DNA of 20,579 nucleotides from the IMG/VR virus record IMGVR_UViG_3300020179_000224, positions 1-20,579 of that record. One strand, given 5' to 3'. The position numbers and the translations under genes are program-made. Below the pieces are notes generated by a model. It was not told the origin of the DNA, did not search any database, and worked only from the letters and a program-made list of their open reading frames with translations. This document shows positions 3,622 to 12,462 of the stretch, piece after piece (the first letter of the stretch is position 1; each line of letters starts with the position of its first letter). The stretch comes from a virus.

Positions 3622-3843
3622 GTGGACCCTCAATGGCTCATTAACCTTGGATTTGGTGCGGCTGGTGCCTTTGGCATGTGGATCCTTAATAGACTTAGTA
3701 CGTCCGTCGAAAAGATTGAGGACAGCGTTAAGGATATGCCCTTGAGGTATGTGACCAAAGATGACTACCGAGAGGACATTGTTGAGATCAAAGGCATGTT
3801 GGGCAAGATATTTGACCGCCTGGAGACTAAGGTAGACAAATGA
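3622..3843 (+). CDS. Small membrane-anchored coiled-coil protein
   Basis: 73 residues from a GTG start; GGAG at 3611-3614 is well spaced for it, and no better in-frame start exists. Residues ~5-23 form one hydrophobic, glycine-rich membrane segment (INLGFGAAGAFGMWIL). The remainder is charged and helical (SVEKIEDSVKDM, DIVEIKGMLGKIFDRLE), probably a short coiled coil on one side of the inner membrane. Such proteins in phages are often lysis accessories or holin-like. It overlaps the next gene by ATGA, putting it at the head of the ACP/ketosynthase cluster, so it could also serve as that cluster's membrane anchor. No specific family was recognised. Confidence 0.6.
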   Translation: MDPQWLINLGFGAAGAFGMWILNRLSTSVEKIEDSVKDMPLRYVTKDDYREDIVEIKGMLGKIFDRLETKVDK

Positions 3844-4187
3844 GCCTCAACATGGACGCCCTGGCAACCCCTATCTTTGGGGAGCCAGACAGCCTTAGAG
3901 ACTTTCTTTTTGAGAATGGCATCCAGCATCAAGTCTTCTGTGAGCGTCTGACTGACGCTGGTTTTAGCGTCCCACGCTACCCTCTTATTGACGCCGATCC
4001 TCAAGACCTAGACGATTGGTTGCAAATACATCAACTTGAACACCAACGCTTTGCTACAATCCTTAACTTGAATGATCCATTTAACTTGCTGGACTTGGAC
4101 TTCAACCAAGAGGATGACTTTTATGATTGGGTAAACAGTCATCTGTTAATCCATGAACAAATAGCAAGATCGTTGGGGGTGACATGA
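3840..4187 (+). CDS. Triple helical-repeat protein upstream of ACP, unknown function
   Basis: 115 residues, acidic; ATG in an ATGA overlap with the previous gene and AAGG 7 bases upstream. It contains three copies of a ~20-residue helical unit of the form L-x-D-[FW]-L-x3-[NH]-x3-H-[QE]. Aligned residues are D21/D59/D96, F22/W60/W97, N26/H64/H101 and H30/H68/H105, with periods of 38 and 37 residues. I believe similar D-W-x-x-x-H-x-x-x-H units occur in unannotated proteins of environmental phages, but I cannot name a family. The paired histidines could bind metal or pack between helices. The protein is coupled to the ACP gene by another ATGA overlap, so it may be a partner of the ACP or a virion component. 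Confidence 0.65.
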   Translation: MSLNMDALATPIFGEPDSLRDFLFENGIQHQVFCERLTDAGFSVPRYPLIDADPQDLDDWLQIHQLEHQRFATILNLNDPFNLLDLDFNQEDDFYDWVNSHLLIHEQIARSLGVT

Positions 4188-4477
4188 TTGCTGATGCAGA
4201 CTTCTTCCGTTTATTCGATGCTTGTGCGGTCCTAGCCAAGACGCCAAACAACCCGCCAATACCGGCAGGATCATTAGATGATCTACTGCCAAGCCTCAAT
4301 GTAGACAGCCTGGATACCATCATCATTGGCATGTACATGTGCGACATATTTGGCGTGCCAGAAGAGGTTGGCAAGACCATGCAGGTGCGCTCTGTAGGCG
4401 ATCTAAAGGCTTTCCTGCTTGCCAATGCCACTGTGGAGTCAATCGACGTGGATAAGGTCATTGAGAACCTTAAATGA
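4184..4477 (+). CDS. Acyl carrier protein (ACP)
   Basis: 97 residues; ATG overlaps the preceding stop (ATGA) and GGGGGTG lies just upstream. Residues 39-56 (NVDSLDTIIIGMYMCDIF) match the ACP signature: Ser42 in V-D-S-L-D is the 4'-phosphopantetheine attachment site and begins helix II. GVPEEV (57-62), TMQVRSVGDLKAFLLAN (65-81) and the last helix match ACP loop II to helix IV. Length is somewhat over the usual ~78 because of a longer loop after helix I (TPNNPPIPAG) and a C-terminal tail. Helix II has only two acidic residues (D44, D54), fewer than in typical fatty-acid ACPs, which could mean a dedicated partner enzyme. The ketosynthase follows with a 4-base overlap. No phosphopantetheinyl transferase is visible, so the host's would be needed for activation. 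Confidence 0.88.
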   Translation: MIADADFFRLFDACAVLAKTPNNPPIPAGSLDDLLPSLNVDSLDTIIIGMYMCDIFGVPEEVGKTMQVRSVGDLKAFLLANATVESIDVDKVIENLK

Positions 4478-5598
4478 GCCTCTATCTGACCCATGGATTC
4501 ACTGCCTACAGCACCAAAACCGAGTTATTTGACGAAATAATCCACCCCCAGCGGGTGCATTGGCTGCCCCAAACGTACCAAAAAGCCAAGACTGGCTTCA
4601 CTTACGCTCCCCATATCCTTGCAGATATGGTCCTGCCCCCAGAAAAAATTTCATGGATTAGGGAAAACCCTAGTATAGGGAAGACGGCGTTCATCCTTGC
4701 CGGTGGCAACCAGCACTTTGCTGGCATCAACCCCAGGGACAACCAGAAAGACACTCGGCTGCATTACGTCTACAAGTTCCTGCCGTTTACCCTGACCAAT
4801 GTGTATGCAGGTAGGATGGCCCAGCAAATATGTGAGCCAGACTACATTTCCACGGATGCCACTGCCTGCGTATCCAGCCTCAAGGTGTTGCAAGACTGCC
4901 TGATGCTGGAGCAGTTTGGCTACACCCGTTTTGTGATCCTGTCGGTCGAGGATGCAGTGACCAACTCAGTCCTAGAGTTCTTTGGAGACTCGGGTGCTTG
5001 CCTGACCAAAAAACGGGAAGAAGAGGAAAAAATCATGCCAAGCGCATTTGATAGCGTGAATGGCGGGTTCTACGTGGGCCAGGGCGCTGCATTTGCGGTC
5101 CTGATGAGCGAGAAAGAGGTGGCTTACTACGGGCTACATCCCAAGGCTAGGCTGGTTTCTGCCTGCCACTCTGCCGAGAAACTGAGCAATGCCATAGGGC
5201 AGAGAGAAGATGGCAAGGGATATTCTGATGCAATAGATGGAGCGTTAACTTATGGTCAAGTTCATGCAAGTGAAATCACTATTGTTAAGACTCATGGCAC
5301 GGGCACCAAATCAAACAACGCCTCGGAAAAGGCTGGGTTACAAAGATCACTTAAAGACTTCGTAGCCACGTCTTACAAGCAAAAAATAGGACATACGATG
5401 GGCGCTTCGGGGTTGCTAGAAACCCTACTTTTGCTTGACAATTTGGCGTATGGTGTTGTACCAGGAATAGCCAACAGGACTGAGAAGGACGATGTTTTCT
5501 TGTCCGAGGACTGTGAGGCTCCAGATGGCTTAGTGTTGAGTGTAGCGGCAGGAATGGGCAATGTTTACTCTGCGGCTATCTTTGAACCTGTGAGGTAA
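4474..5598 (+). CDS. Beta-ketoacyl-ACP synthase (KAS I/II-type ketosynthase)
   Basis: 374 residues, thiolase fold of the FabB/FabF type, predicted to catalyse decarboxylative Claisen condensation on ACP-bound acyl chains. Catalytic residues are visible: Cys132 in DATACVSS, His274 in KTHGTGT, Lys302 and His307 in YKQKIGHTMGASG, the same K-x4-H spacing as FabF. NGGFYVGQGAAFAVL (196-210) matches the D-G-F-V-x-G-[DE]-G-A segment. The protein is ~35 residues shorter than E. coli FabF. At the C-terminal glycine-rich loop (AAGMGNVYSAAIF, 358-370) the usual gatekeeper Phe residues appear as Ala359 and Met361, which could alter the acyl pocket. The gene starts within the ACP stop (ATGA) with no strong ribosome site, implying translational coupling. 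The Cys-His-His set argues against a chain-length-factor or a dead homologue. Substrate and product are unknown. Confidence 0.9.
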   Translation: MSLYLTHGFTAYSTKTELFDEIIHPQRVHWLPQTYQKAKTGFTYAPHILADMVLPPEKISWIRENPSIGKTAFILAGGNQHFAGINPRDNQKDTRLHYVYKFLPFTLTNVYAGRMAQQICEPDYISTDATACVSSLKVLQDCLMLEQFGYTRFVILSVEDAVTNSVLEFFGDSGACLTKKREEEEKIMPSAFDSVNGGFYVGQGAAFAVLMSEKEVAYYGLHPKARLVSACHSAEKLSNAIGQREDGKGYSDAIDGALTYGQVHASEITIVKTHGTGTKSNNASEKAGLQRSLKDFVATSYKQKIGHTMGASGLLETLLLLDNLAYGVVPGIANRTEKDDVFLSEDCEAPDGLVLSVAAGMGNVYSAAIFEPVR

Positions 5599-6050
5599 TG
5601 CCGATGCAAATGGTAGACAGTAAAAGCGAGATGTTAACGCCAGAGGATATTATCGGCATTGCTGGGATGAACACTGATGCTAATGTTGACTATGGACAAC
5701 TGGTTCAGATGATTAACACTGAACTGCAAATGCCCAACACTTTGTTTATTCGGCAGGGCAACACACTGTTTATTCTGCACAAAGCAGAGCCAAGAGTGGG
5801 TTGGTTCCGTGCCTTAAACGCTGATACAGCGCCAAACTTCATTGAAAACGGGAACGAGTTTATTCGTGCCTGCTACAAACTTGGGTTTGATACGGTGGCA
5901 ACAACCTTTCAAGACTCATCCTTGCTCAACATTTTTAGAGCAATTTCGCGCAATCCACCCAATCCAGACATGGGTTACAAGGTACAGGAAACGAGTGACG
6001 GGGGCTTCCAAGTAACGGTCCAGTGTGGGCCATTAAGGGGGGCCGATTAA
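5598..6050 (+). CDS. GNAT-fold-like protein after the ketosynthase
   Basis: 150 residues from ATG 5598 (TAATG overlap with the ketosynthase stop); a second ATG at 5604 is better spaced from the GAGG at 5591-5594 and would give 148 residues. The predicted order is strand-strand-strand-helix-strand-helix-strand-strand: NTLFIRQGNTLFILHKA, VGWFRALNAD, NFIENGNEFIRACYKLG, FDTVATTFQD, SSLLNIFRAI, then MGYKVQETS and FQVTVQC. This is the topology of GNAT acyltransferases and resembles the small GNAT-like protein (gp13 type) that precedes the internal virion genes of T7. No clear Q/R-x-x-G-x-G/A acyl-CoA loop is seen, so catalysis is doubtful. It could be a late-morphogenesis protein or an ACP-using acyltransferase. 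Confidence 0.55.
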   Translation: MPMQMVDSKSEMLTPEDIIGIAGMNTDANVDYGQLVQMINTELQMPNTLFIRQGNTLFILHKAEPRVGWFRALNADTAPNFIENGNEFIRACYKLGFDTVATTFQDSSLLNIFRAISRNPPNPDMGYKVQETSDGGFQVTVQCGPLRGAD

Positions 6051-7474
6051 TGTCAGCAGTAGTTAAGGCAGTTACCAATGTCGTTAGCGACGTTGTAGAA
6101 GGCGTTGGAGATGTTTTGGAAGATGTTGGCGAGGCCGTCGTTAATGTTGTTGAAACCGTTGTTGAGAACCCTGAAATTATTGTTATCGCTGTTGCTGCTC
6201 CATACGCCGTAGGTGCGGTTGGTACGGCTGCTGGCGCATCTGCTGCAACAATTGCAGCCATTACTCCACCGATTACGGCTGCCGCTATTACTGCAAGCCA
6301 GGGTGGTGACTTAGAAGATATTGGCAAGGCTGCTTTGACGGCCTATGTTGCTCCCCAGGTCGGTAAGGCTGTTGGCGGCGCCACTGCACAGGCCGTTGCT
6401 GGTTCTGGCATGTCTAACGCCATGCAGCAAACAGTGGTCAATACCATTTCATCTGGCGCTGCAGGGGCCACTGCCGCTGCTATTCAGGGCGGTGACATTG
6501 GTAAAACCGCGCTACTCGGCGCAGCCGGTGGAGCAGGTGGAACTCTTGCAGGACAGGCCGCTGCTGAATTGACTGACAGTGAGATGGCTGTTCGTTATGC
6601 AGAACGTGCAGGCCAGGTTGCTGCTCAAGGTGGTGACGTGGGGATGGCACTTGCCCAACAAGGTATTTCTGACATAACCAAGTCTCTTACCAGCAAACCC
6701 AAAGATCAGCCCATGACTCGGGAAGAGTTGGCTGATGCTACGTACCAGTTGTTGCAAGAAGAACTGTCTGCTATTGAGGGTAAGGGACCGCGCACTGGTG
6801 TGCAGGTTGCTGAAGCAGGCATGTCTGACAGGCCGCCGCTACGTATTGACATTGAGGGTGTTGGTGACTTTAGTTCTGAAGACAGGGTCGGTGGTCGAGG
6901 CGAAATGCCAGAGACAACATTGCCGCCTGTTGAAGTTACTGCCGACATGGATGTTGGTGAGTTGACCGATGCCCAGTTGATTGACCTGGTGCGTGCTGGT
7001 CAACGCCGCCGTCAAGAGGCCACTCGTCCTGCCGAGCCAAGAGAAACAGAGGGTGAAGGCGATCAAAGGCTGCCTGACGTGGTAGTTGAGGCCGATGCAG
7101 AGGAAATTAGTGATGAAGAAATTCTTGATCTGATTCGTCTTGGCATGGACCGCGCTGAAGGTGGTGAGGGCGCTGGAGAGGAAACATTGCCCGAAACAGT
7201 TGTTAAAGGTGAAGCAATTCCCGAGGGTGAGATGGAACTTGGGGGTGGTGAAGGCGAGGGTGAGCGTCCTGTAACGCCACGTGTCTTTGGCACTCCTATT
7301 GTTGCCGAGCAGGTTGCCCGTCGTGGTCCTACTTCATTGACTCCAAGGCAGGTTGGGCAGGGTTACAGCGCCATTATTGGTGACAAAGAACCCACGTTTG
7401 GTGGTGATCCGGGGCAACAGCAAGAGGTATGGAACGTCCGTTCTCTGCGTCTGCGTAAAGCGTTAGGACTCTAA
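6050..7474 (+). CDS. Internal-virion-type protein with Gly/Ala-rich N-half and acidic repeats
   Basis: 474 residues from ATG 6050, chosen over the upstream GTG at 6023 because AAGGGGGG at 6035-6042 sits 7 bases before it and the ATG overlaps the previous TAA. Residues 1-40 are valine-rich and acidic; 41-175 are Ala/Gly-rich and hydrophobic, able to form membrane-associated helices. QGGD occurs three times (84-87, 146-149, 193-196), each opening an Ala/Gly helix. Residues 291-317 and 341-366 are copies of L-P-x-V-x-V-x-A-D...E-[LI]-[ST]-D-x-[QE]-[LI]-x-D-L-[VI]-R-x-G, with a third degenerate start at 380. The next three genes are of the same general kind, so this is probably an ejection or internal virion protein. 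The specific role is inferred from context. Confidence 0.65.
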   Translation: MSAVVKAVTNVVSDVVEGVGDVLEDVGEAVVNVVETVVENPEIIVIAVAAPYAVGAVGTAAGASAATIAAITPPITAAAITASQGGDLEDIGKAALTAYVAPQVGKAVGGATAQAVAGSGMSNAMQQTVVNTISSGAAGATAAAIQGGDIGKTALLGAAGGAGGTLAGQAAAELTDSEMAVRYAERAGQVAAQGGDVGMALAQQGISDITKSLTSKPKDQPMTREELADATYQLLQEELSAIEGKGPRTGVQVAEAGMSDRPPLRIDIEGVGDFSSEDRVGGRGEMPETTLPPVEVTADMDVGELTDAQLIDLVRAGQRRRQEATRPAEPRETEGEGDQRLPDVVVEADAEEISDEEILDLIRLGMDRAEGGEGAGEETLPETVVKGEAIPEGEMELGGGEGEGERPVTPRVFGTPIVAEQVARRGPTSLTPRQVGQGYSAIIGDKEPTFGGDPGQQQEVWNVRSLRLRKALGL

Positions 7475-10078: not shown

Positions 10079-12462
10079 TGGCTAGAGACATACTAGGCGA
10101 CACGGCAGCAGCATCTGCACAGCGCGGCAGGGACATATTTGCTCAAGAGGTGCCTACACCAATTGGCACAGACTTTGCGTTTGAACCATCTGGCGCAACA
10201 ACCCCCGAATTTGACGTAGCAAAAATTCCTGAAAGCACGGTTTACGGCGGTGCTTTGGGCACTGTTACACCCGAAATCTTGAGGTACGGTGGCAGAGCAT
10301 TGCAGGTTTTACCCTTTGGTCAGCCTGCTGCTGGCACGTTGGGTCGCGGTATGGAAGTGGCTGCAGAGGCTGGAAGAAGGCGTCGGGGCGTACTCGCCGC
10401 TGAAGGCGCTGTAGGTGGTGGCGTTGGTGAAACGCTGTATCAAACAACTAGCGCCATGGGCGCACCGGAGCCAGTGTCTATTGGCGCAAGCGTTGTTGGT
10501 GGCATGGTTGCTCCTACTGCGTTAGGTCAGTTTCTTTCCAGACTTCCGTTTTTGAACAAATCTATTGCGGATGCAAGAGAAGGTGGTTTCGGTGACGCTG
10601 CAAGAAGTTTTGCAGAGAGGCTACGTGGTGGCAAGCCTGCCGAGTCCAGAGAGGCCATAGACCAAGTTGTGCGTGCCTTAGATGATGAAGTGCAAGCCAT
10701 TCGTAGTCGTGGTCAGGCGCAAGCAAACCAGATTATGTCAACTGCCGAGGCTGAGATTGCCCGTCTTGGCCCTGATGCAGCGCAACAGGCTGCACAGATA
10801 CGCAAGCGTGCAACCGACCAGGCTGCCGCATTGCTGTTTAGAGCCAATCAGCAGGTAGAGCAGCGTCAACTGGCGTTAAGAAGAATCAAGCAGGAGCAGC
10901 GTTTTGGTGAGCAAACCACAATAGGCGAGACAACCCGCCGTGCCGTTGGTGAGCCACGGGAAGCCACGGATGTAGGTCAAGCACTGCGTGACCGCATAAC
11001 CACGGTGCAAGGTGACAGGCTCACGCGGCGTTCTAAACAGGCCGACACGGACAAAAGGGCTGTGGCAGCCGAGGTCGATGCTAAACAGGGTGCGGGAATT
11101 GGTGTAGACGCTGACCCTAAAAGCGGCCCTATTTATCAGGAAATGATTGCCGACTTGCAAAAGCGTTTGGGCATTGGCGAGGCTAGGCTAGAGGCACCTT
11201 TTGCCGAGATGACTGAGCCTAGAACCAGGCGCACCTTACAGGAAATTTATAGCGTACTCAAACCGACTCAAGGTGAGGTCGGGGGTGTGGCGGTGACGCC
11301 CAAGGTTAGTTTTGAGTCTTTGGATGCTTTGCGCCGTCGCCTGGGAGAAATTTACCGTTCCCCACCGGCTGAAGGTGCGGCAGCCATGGACGCCACAATT
11401 GCAAAGGATTTTTACAAAAAATTGTCGGAAATACTGGGTGAATACTCTCCAAACCAAAAGCAATTTATATCTAATTACGAAACTCTTTCTAAAGAACTAA
11501 ACGTATTTAAGACTGCGGCTGGTCGGAAAGCGACTGCCGTGGATCGCTATGACCCAGAATCCTTTGCTACTGACCCTGCCAAACTGCCTACCAATTACTT
11601 CTCCACTCGTACATCAGTACAAGACTTAATTGAGTTAACGGGTGGTGATAAGAAGTTTGTAGAGCAGCAGGCTGCGTCTTTTGTCTCCCGGCAGTTAGAA
11701 GGTGTACGCACCCCGCAGGCTGCGGCTGAGTTTGAGGCCCGTAACCGTGATTGGCTGCGTGAGTTTCCTGATCTGCAAGCCTCTGTCAAACGCTACATTG
11801 ACAGCCTGGGGTTTGCTGAAACCAGGGGCCGCAGGCTTACTGAGGCTGGTAAGGCTCTGCGTACCGAAATTGGTGAGTTGCCTATCAGGGCGCGCAAAGA
11901 GGCTTCCAAACTAGGCAAAGAAGCGGATGTTCAGGCCCGTGCAGTTGAGGGCATCACTGGCAAAACAACCACTGCCGCAACCAGGGCTGCTAACGAGGCG
12001 CGTGCTGCCGCTAATGTGCAGGCTAGATTGTTGCAGCGCACGCCACAACAAGATCAACCAAGATACTTTGATAGCCTTATTTCCGCTGGCGATACAGACA
12101 AATTGGCTGCGGCTGCTCCGGTCATTAAAAGCGATCCACAGTTAATGAATAGTTTTGTAGAGGGCGTGCGTATTACATTGTCAAGAATGGACCCCCAAGA
12201 AATTGGAAATAACTACAGGCGCACTGTGCGACCTGCGTTGGAAAAGGCTGGATTGGCAAGCAAGGCACAACTGGACAATATAGATCGTCAGGTGCGTCTA
12301 ATTGAAATTTCCGGTACGCCAGAACTTCGACCAGGCTTGATGGTTACGGCTATTCGCAATACATTGGCTGCTGGTGGTGGTATGGCTACTAGCCGTTTAA
12401 TGGATTCGTTAGGATTAAGTTTTGCAAACTCTTACTTAGGAGCGCCAGATGCCTCTCGTTAA
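10078..12462 (+). CDS. Large internal-virion-type protein
   Basis: 794 residues, the largest protein in the window; TAATG overlap with the previous gene. An N-terminal Gly/Ala/Pro-rich part (about residues 60-165) has hydrophobic stretches such as [19 protein letters not shown] long Ala/Gln/Arg-rich coiled coil follows at about 190-290. The middle (about 345-500) is a helical domain with [30 protein letters not shown] and [18 protein letters not shown]. The rest is more helix, and the end ([26 protein letters not shown]) is weakly hydrophobic. No enzyme motif such as a lysozyme-type transglycosylase site was found. The size, helical makeup and position at the end of the virion block suggest an ejection protein. 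The 3' end overlaps the next small gene by 14 bases. Confidence 0.6.

Follow-up and report, generated by a model that had tools for sequence, protein, structure and literature searches.

Sequence comparisons identify a predicted acyl carrier protein-ketosynthase gene pair as an autonomous two-gene cassette of phages

In bacteria (E. coli and Desulfobulbaceae among them), the standard gene order places acpP, encoding the acyl carrier protein (ACP), before fabF, encoding the ketosynthase (KS) KAS II. Genes of the ACP or FabF type have also been described on phage DNA and proposed to be auxiliary metabolic genes: roseobacter prophages carry fabG-acpP-fabF (PMC8224337), Alteromonas phage R22Y carries an ACP gene (PMC11705849), and freshwater pelagimyophages carry fabF (PMC7029224). 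As described, these virus-borne fatty acid genes are either single or part of a bacterial-order set with fabG, with no phage-only ACP-KS pair and no change of slot, and this sets them apart from the locus reported here, in which the pair is obligate across a whole phage group. We found no paper describing this pair in the literature searched, subscription papers and preprints lying outside the search. One deposited sequence, MW202545.1 (Caudoviricetes sp. ctpbd312, Manatee Spring), has the same ACP-KS-GNAT-fold gene order. Its KS, 57% identical to ours, is annotated as a 3-oxoacyl-ACP synthase; its ACP is a hypothetical protein in the record, and the pairing is not noted. The deposited KS coding sequence (L002:19998-21098) omits the first 156 bases of the ORF, and as deposited it therefore no longer overlaps that of the ACP.

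Compared with bacterial acpP-fabF, the phage pair shares the gene order, the KS fold, the Cys-His-Lys-His catalytic residues, and the DSLD serine motif. It differs in the length of the KS (374 residues rather than 413), in the gate (AGMGN rather than FGFGG), in its level of identity (16 to 21%), and in the junction between the two genes, which overlap by 4 bp rather than lying 87 bp apart. The phage pair also has no adjoining fabD or fabG and was found only in phage DNA.

The locus lies in a 20,579-base virus record, the whole of which we refer to as the window, containing virion and lysis genes followed by recombination genes on the opposite strand. Positions 302 to 1951 encode a tail-fiber-like protein with SPRY (E = 1.3e-19) and DUF7483 (E = 8e-127) matches. 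The ACP gene (4184 to 4477, 97 amino acids) and the KS gene (4474 to 5598, 374 amino acids) are both on the plus strand, at the coordinates given in the original prediction, and the ACP stop codon and KS start codon share the ATGA at 4474 to 4477. Upstream on the same strand is a 115-amino-acid protein (3840 to 4187) with a triple repeat that we read by eye in the translation. Downstream, also on the plus strand, are a GNAT-fold protein (5604 to 6050, with a possible start also at 5598) and, at 6053 to 7474, the first protein of a putative ejection or internal virion block; this last ORF and those following it had no family match in Pfam or PHROG, and their ejection identity comes from position and composition. 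All four genes from the repeat protein to the GNAT-fold protein had been said to overlap. This is slightly overstated: there are ATGA overlaps between the repeat and ACP genes and between the ACP and KS genes, but a 1-bp overlap (TAATG) between the KS and GNAT-fold genes exists only if the latter starts at the first ATG, at 5598, and the 5604 start is favored by its GAGG spacing and by the N termini of relatives.

To place the pair among viruses, we scanned IMG/VR and found at least 531 viral contigs with a relative of the KS, a lower bound, since the scan found only contigs carrying one of two short motifs; these contigs are not independent of one another, and many are fragmentary. Conservation and pairing were then counted in fetched loci, the best 80 per scan query, rather than in all 531 contigs. 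In what follows, the "late" and "early" slots of the pair are read from the neighboring genes.

The window ACP alone had no Pfam match. The PP-binding family (PF00550) was matched by 16 of 23 members of its family (best E = 3e-4), and when the family profile was compared with PDB sequences, the best matches were ACPs (E = 3.8e-5). Ser42 (4307 to 4309) sits within a D-S-L-D that is invariant in the family alignment, and a DS(L/M)(D/G) serine motif was present in all 184 phage ACPs counted. On these comparisons, the ORF at 4184 to 4477 is an acyl carrier protein with Ser42 as its predicted phosphopantetheine serine, as first proposed from its V-D-S-L-D motif.

The window KS matched Ketoacyl-synt_C over the Pfam cutoff (E = 8.8e-14), while its ketoacyl-synt match (E = 0.0017) fell just short. 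The KS family profile matched FabF in the PDB (E about 1e-25), and an AlphaFold model (pLDDT 82, with the pocket segment at residues 80 to 105 poorly modeled) matched FabF structures, the best with E = 8.5e-23 and a TM score of 0.78. In a MAFFT alignment, Cys132 (4867 to 4869), His274 (5293 to 5295), Lys302 (5377 to 5379), and His307 (5392 to 5394) occupied the positions of E. coli FabF TACTS, HGTST, and KSMTGH; Cys132 and Lys302 align with the catalytic Cys and Lys, and His274 and His307 with the first and second catalytic His. The concern that these residues might lie outside the active site was therefore not borne out. The Cys, HGT(G/S)T, K..xGHT, and GMG motifs were kept in all 186 distinct full late-slot KS genes among the fetched loci. 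We conclude that the ORF at 4474 to 5598 encodes a ketosynthase of FabF fold, with predicted condensing activity and a Cys-His-Lys-His site that is intact, so that the four catalytic residues named in the original prediction stand.

The gate of the enzyme is altered. Where FabF has NSFGFGGTN, the window KS has VAAGMGNVY (Met361 at 5554 to 5556), and the FabF-type GFGG gating loop was absent, with GMGN in the window and GMG in all 186 KS genes. Because of this GMGN gate, we class the KS as a relative of KAS I/II and not as FabF proper, and its substrate, even its reaction, may differ.

The two genes are tightly linked. An ACP gene was directly upstream of the KS gene in 184 of 184 testable late-slot cases, and the 4-base ATGA overlap was present in 178 of these 184 relatives. 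The adjacency and overlap first noted in the window thus extend to its relatives, and neither gene was seen there without the other, as it might have been had the linkage been fortuitous; a condensing enzyme that appears intact, accompanied by its own carrier, is a recurrent feature of hundreds of phage contigs. In the window's clade, NG86 dN/dS ratios, taken from unsaturated dS only, were 0.08 to 0.22 for the KS and 0.11 to 0.27 for the ACP. Purifying selection, as estimated from these ratios, acts on both genes, and together with the kept motifs, the low ratios indicate that both are maintained as coding genes with their catalytic residues intact. Both belong to PHROG families listed as unknowns, phrog_28189 for the ACP (E = 2.4e-4) and phrog_35856 for the KS (E = 4e-33). 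When compared with that of L007, the window KS is near identical over its last third (about 5210 to 5598) and diverged before it, which looks like intragenic recombination. The triple-repeat protein is 91 to 99% identical among the window, L003, L004, L164, and L105, where the KS is only 71 to 88% identical, and its dN/dS ratio is about 0.01 to 0.09.

The pair is not confined to the late site. The phage of contig G115 (also L283) has neither gene at the late site; instead, its ACP and KS genes, intact and joined by the ATGA overlap, occupy 10,197 to 11,581, between an SNF2-type helicase gene and a 102-amino-acid ORF, in a block that also encodes a single-stranded DNA-binding protein and has genes of the primase/helicase and PD-(D/E)XK nuclease types. 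Seven more contigs carry the pair in the same replication-block slot, before homologues of the 102-amino-acid ORF. In all eight early-slot pairs, the KS retains the catalytic residues and the GMG gate, and the ACP is directly upstream. Conversely, the early slot of G105 is vacant, the helicase gene running directly into the small ORF with a 4-bp overlap, and the sole KS gene (55,428 to 56,516) occupies its customary position ahead of the GNAT-fold gene. Each slot is thus known both filled and empty. The KS tree requires at least two changes of slot, and because the G115 KS and GNAT-fold protein both group with those of L161, relocation within the lineage is favored over import. Since the two genes are absent together from the late site and intact together elsewhere, we conclude from this comparative evidence that ACP-KS is an autonomous two-gene cassette that moved as one unit and that the late location is not essential for it. 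The ORF marking the early slot (about 102 amino acids; L373:8579-8887, L377:3196-3513, and G105:37814-38107) has the conserved ending WRYHFxKGVEFIKKEL; by eye it resembles an HTH or sigma protein, and it had no Pfam or PHROG match.

A recently host-derived auxiliary metabolic gene would be expected to have close cellular relatives. We scanned 84,980 bacterial and archaeal genomes with two short motifs, which distant relatives could escape, and obtained two matches, only one of which was this KS. It lay on a 37.6-kb contig in a Balneolaceae metagenome-assembled genome (MAG), together with terminase, portal, and capsid genes and the window's other genes; the second match was an ordinary fabG-acpP-fabF operon (Desulfobulbaceae). 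The KS gene was absent from the other 91 genomes searched of the MAG's family and the contig may be misbinned, so we did not accept Balneolaceae as the host. The same MAG (G001 contig C6, L194-L198) has a cluster of large polyketide-synthase-like ORFs with five ketosynthase domains. In a small tree with few outgroups and long branches, the phage KSs formed a single clade with 100/100 support, its stem about 5 changes per column long, and the range of 16 to 21% identity covers E. coli FabF and FabB, two other FabFs, and polyketide synthase KSs. With a phage-only clade and a sole genome match on a contig of phage genes, we rejected bacterial contamination or prophage spillover as the source. Judging by these sequences, the KS is probably a separate, phage-only enzyme lineage, far diverged from bacterial FabF, and labels such as "fabF" or "fatty acid AMG" would hide it. 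We infer from the gene order, which copies that of bacterial acpP-fabF, a hint of ancient capture.

The explanation that we prefer, and to which we give somewhat better than an even chance, is that the pair is an autonomous, phage-specific condensing module in which the KS performs a single condensation with the phage ACP as carrier, the remaining steps falling to host enzymes. A host phosphopantetheinyl transferase would convert the phage ACP to its holo form, and host FabD would load it with malonyl. The phage KS would take up an acyl chain on Cys132 and condense it with the malonyl on its own ACP, giving a β-ketoacyl-ACP, and host FabG, FabZ, and enoyl reductase would complete the cycle. 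The purpose may be to lengthen or redirect the host acyl-chain supply in infection by means of a virus-owned carrier and condensing enzyme. Searches of 20 long contigs, some of them incomplete, for three families, the acyl/malonyl transferase (PF00698), AcpS-type (PF01648), and FabG-type (PF13561) families, were negative, and the same searches were positive in control genomes; those steps would thus have to be supplied by host enzymes. The phage ACP is only partly similar to AcpP, so we assume that host AcpS and FabD would recognize it. This large group of uncultivated phages has probably long used such chain-lengthening chemistry, to judge from the sequences, and the pair suggests that phages own a piece of acyl-chain chemistry. 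It also offers a clean two-gene target for biochemistry.

More tentatively, and with considerable doubt, the pair might be seen as a virus-evolved, host-insulated system in which the altered-gate KS uses only its own carrier and makes a product that host FabF and FabB do not, the cassette working from either the replication or the late block. It is unlikely, if a shade less so than the alternatives below, that the pair serves instead to make a specialized β-ketoacyl-derived product (a signal, a membrane-active lipid, or an antidefense molecule) on an insulated phage ACP, and not ordinary elongation. The deep phage-only KS clade, the invariant altered gate, and the strict coinheritance of the KS with a private ACP, which fits dedicated partners, all suit such a product, but no releasing or tailoring enzyme accompanies the pair in both slots, and the GNAT-fold protein does not do so either.

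Excess FabF or apo-ACP is toxic to E. coli. The pair could act by interfering with host lipid synthesis, tying up malonyl, phosphopantetheine, or acyl chains on the phage carrier and so slowing phospholipid synthesis or weakening the envelope, and this would fit a gene set limited to the carrier and the condensing enzyme, no reductive enzyme having been found. The four-residue active site is intact in every copy, however, which suggests that turnover matters, beyond binding, and we consider interference quite improbable.

We think it very improbable that the GNAT-fold protein acylates a virion or envelope component with a chain made by the pair. The GNAT-like identity proposed for this protein holds at the level of fold: a structure model (pLDDT 88.5) had PDB GNAT matches from E = 3e-4, with TM scores of about 0.5 to 0.6, and there was no sequence-level match. 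The gene directly follows the KS gene in 178 of 179 late-slot cases, which is what virion acylation would have in its favor. Several findings speak against it. The canonical acyl-CoA pyrophosphate loop, R/Q-x-x-G-x-G/A, was not found, the segment before the corresponding helix reading RALNADTAPNF by eye. The GNAT-fold gene and the short upstream protein are retained in five contigs with no ACP or KS at the late site, and these empty sites represent four separate changes on the GNAT-fold protein tree; four of the contigs (L105, L139, L227, and L286) are fragments of 5.6 to 19 kb, so that the pair may lie elsewhere in those phages. L105, which retains a repeat protein 94% identical to the window's, has a 98-bp remnant of the 3' half of the KS gene, matched by the KS profile and containing three in-frame stops. 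In G115, the GNAT-fold gene stays among the virion genes while the pair is in the replication block, and the virion-type protein that follows the GNAT-fold gene has a similar N terminus with or without the pair. Virion acylation is disfavored because no candidate for transferring the chain accompanies the pair in each of its two slots.

By the same comparisons, the GNAT-fold and repeat proteins belong with the virion genes and not with ACP-KS. The four-gene functional cluster originally envisaged is accordingly reduced to two genes: the conserved adjacency expected across phages was seen for the GNAT-fold gene after the KS gene in nearly every late-slot case, but it breaks down at the five sites without the pair and in G115, where the pair is far from the other two genes. 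The GNAT-fold gene immediately precedes ejection-type genes, in the position that T7 gp13 and P22 gp14 occupy relative to internal virion or injection genes; the same positional argument was used to compare a GNAT protein of a cobavirus to T7 gp13 (PMC6775973). Against the single sequences of T7 gp13 and P22 gp14, the hhalign probability was below 1% in each case, so homology was not detectable in these comparisons. By analogy of position with T7 gp13, the GNAT-fold protein probably acts in the virion or in ejection and lies outside the cassette.

We give almost no credence to bacterial contamination or to an acpP-fabF segment recently acquired from a host as an ordinary auxiliary metabolic gene: the standard bacterial order makes a distant capture origin plausible, but the low identity to bacterial KSs, the single long-stemmed phage clade, and the contrast between hundreds of viral contigs and one phage-gene contig among the cellular genomes argue against it. 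We also examined FabF in named phages. The 30 records were mostly unannotated, bacterial-looking DNA, and only MW202545.1 belonged to this KS family. Several of them with Listeria, Staphylococcus, and Enterococcus phage labels (OR846827, OR848561, and OR844991, for example) encode an unannotated ordinary FabF, 47 to 52% identical to that of E. coli, and may be bacterial contigs.
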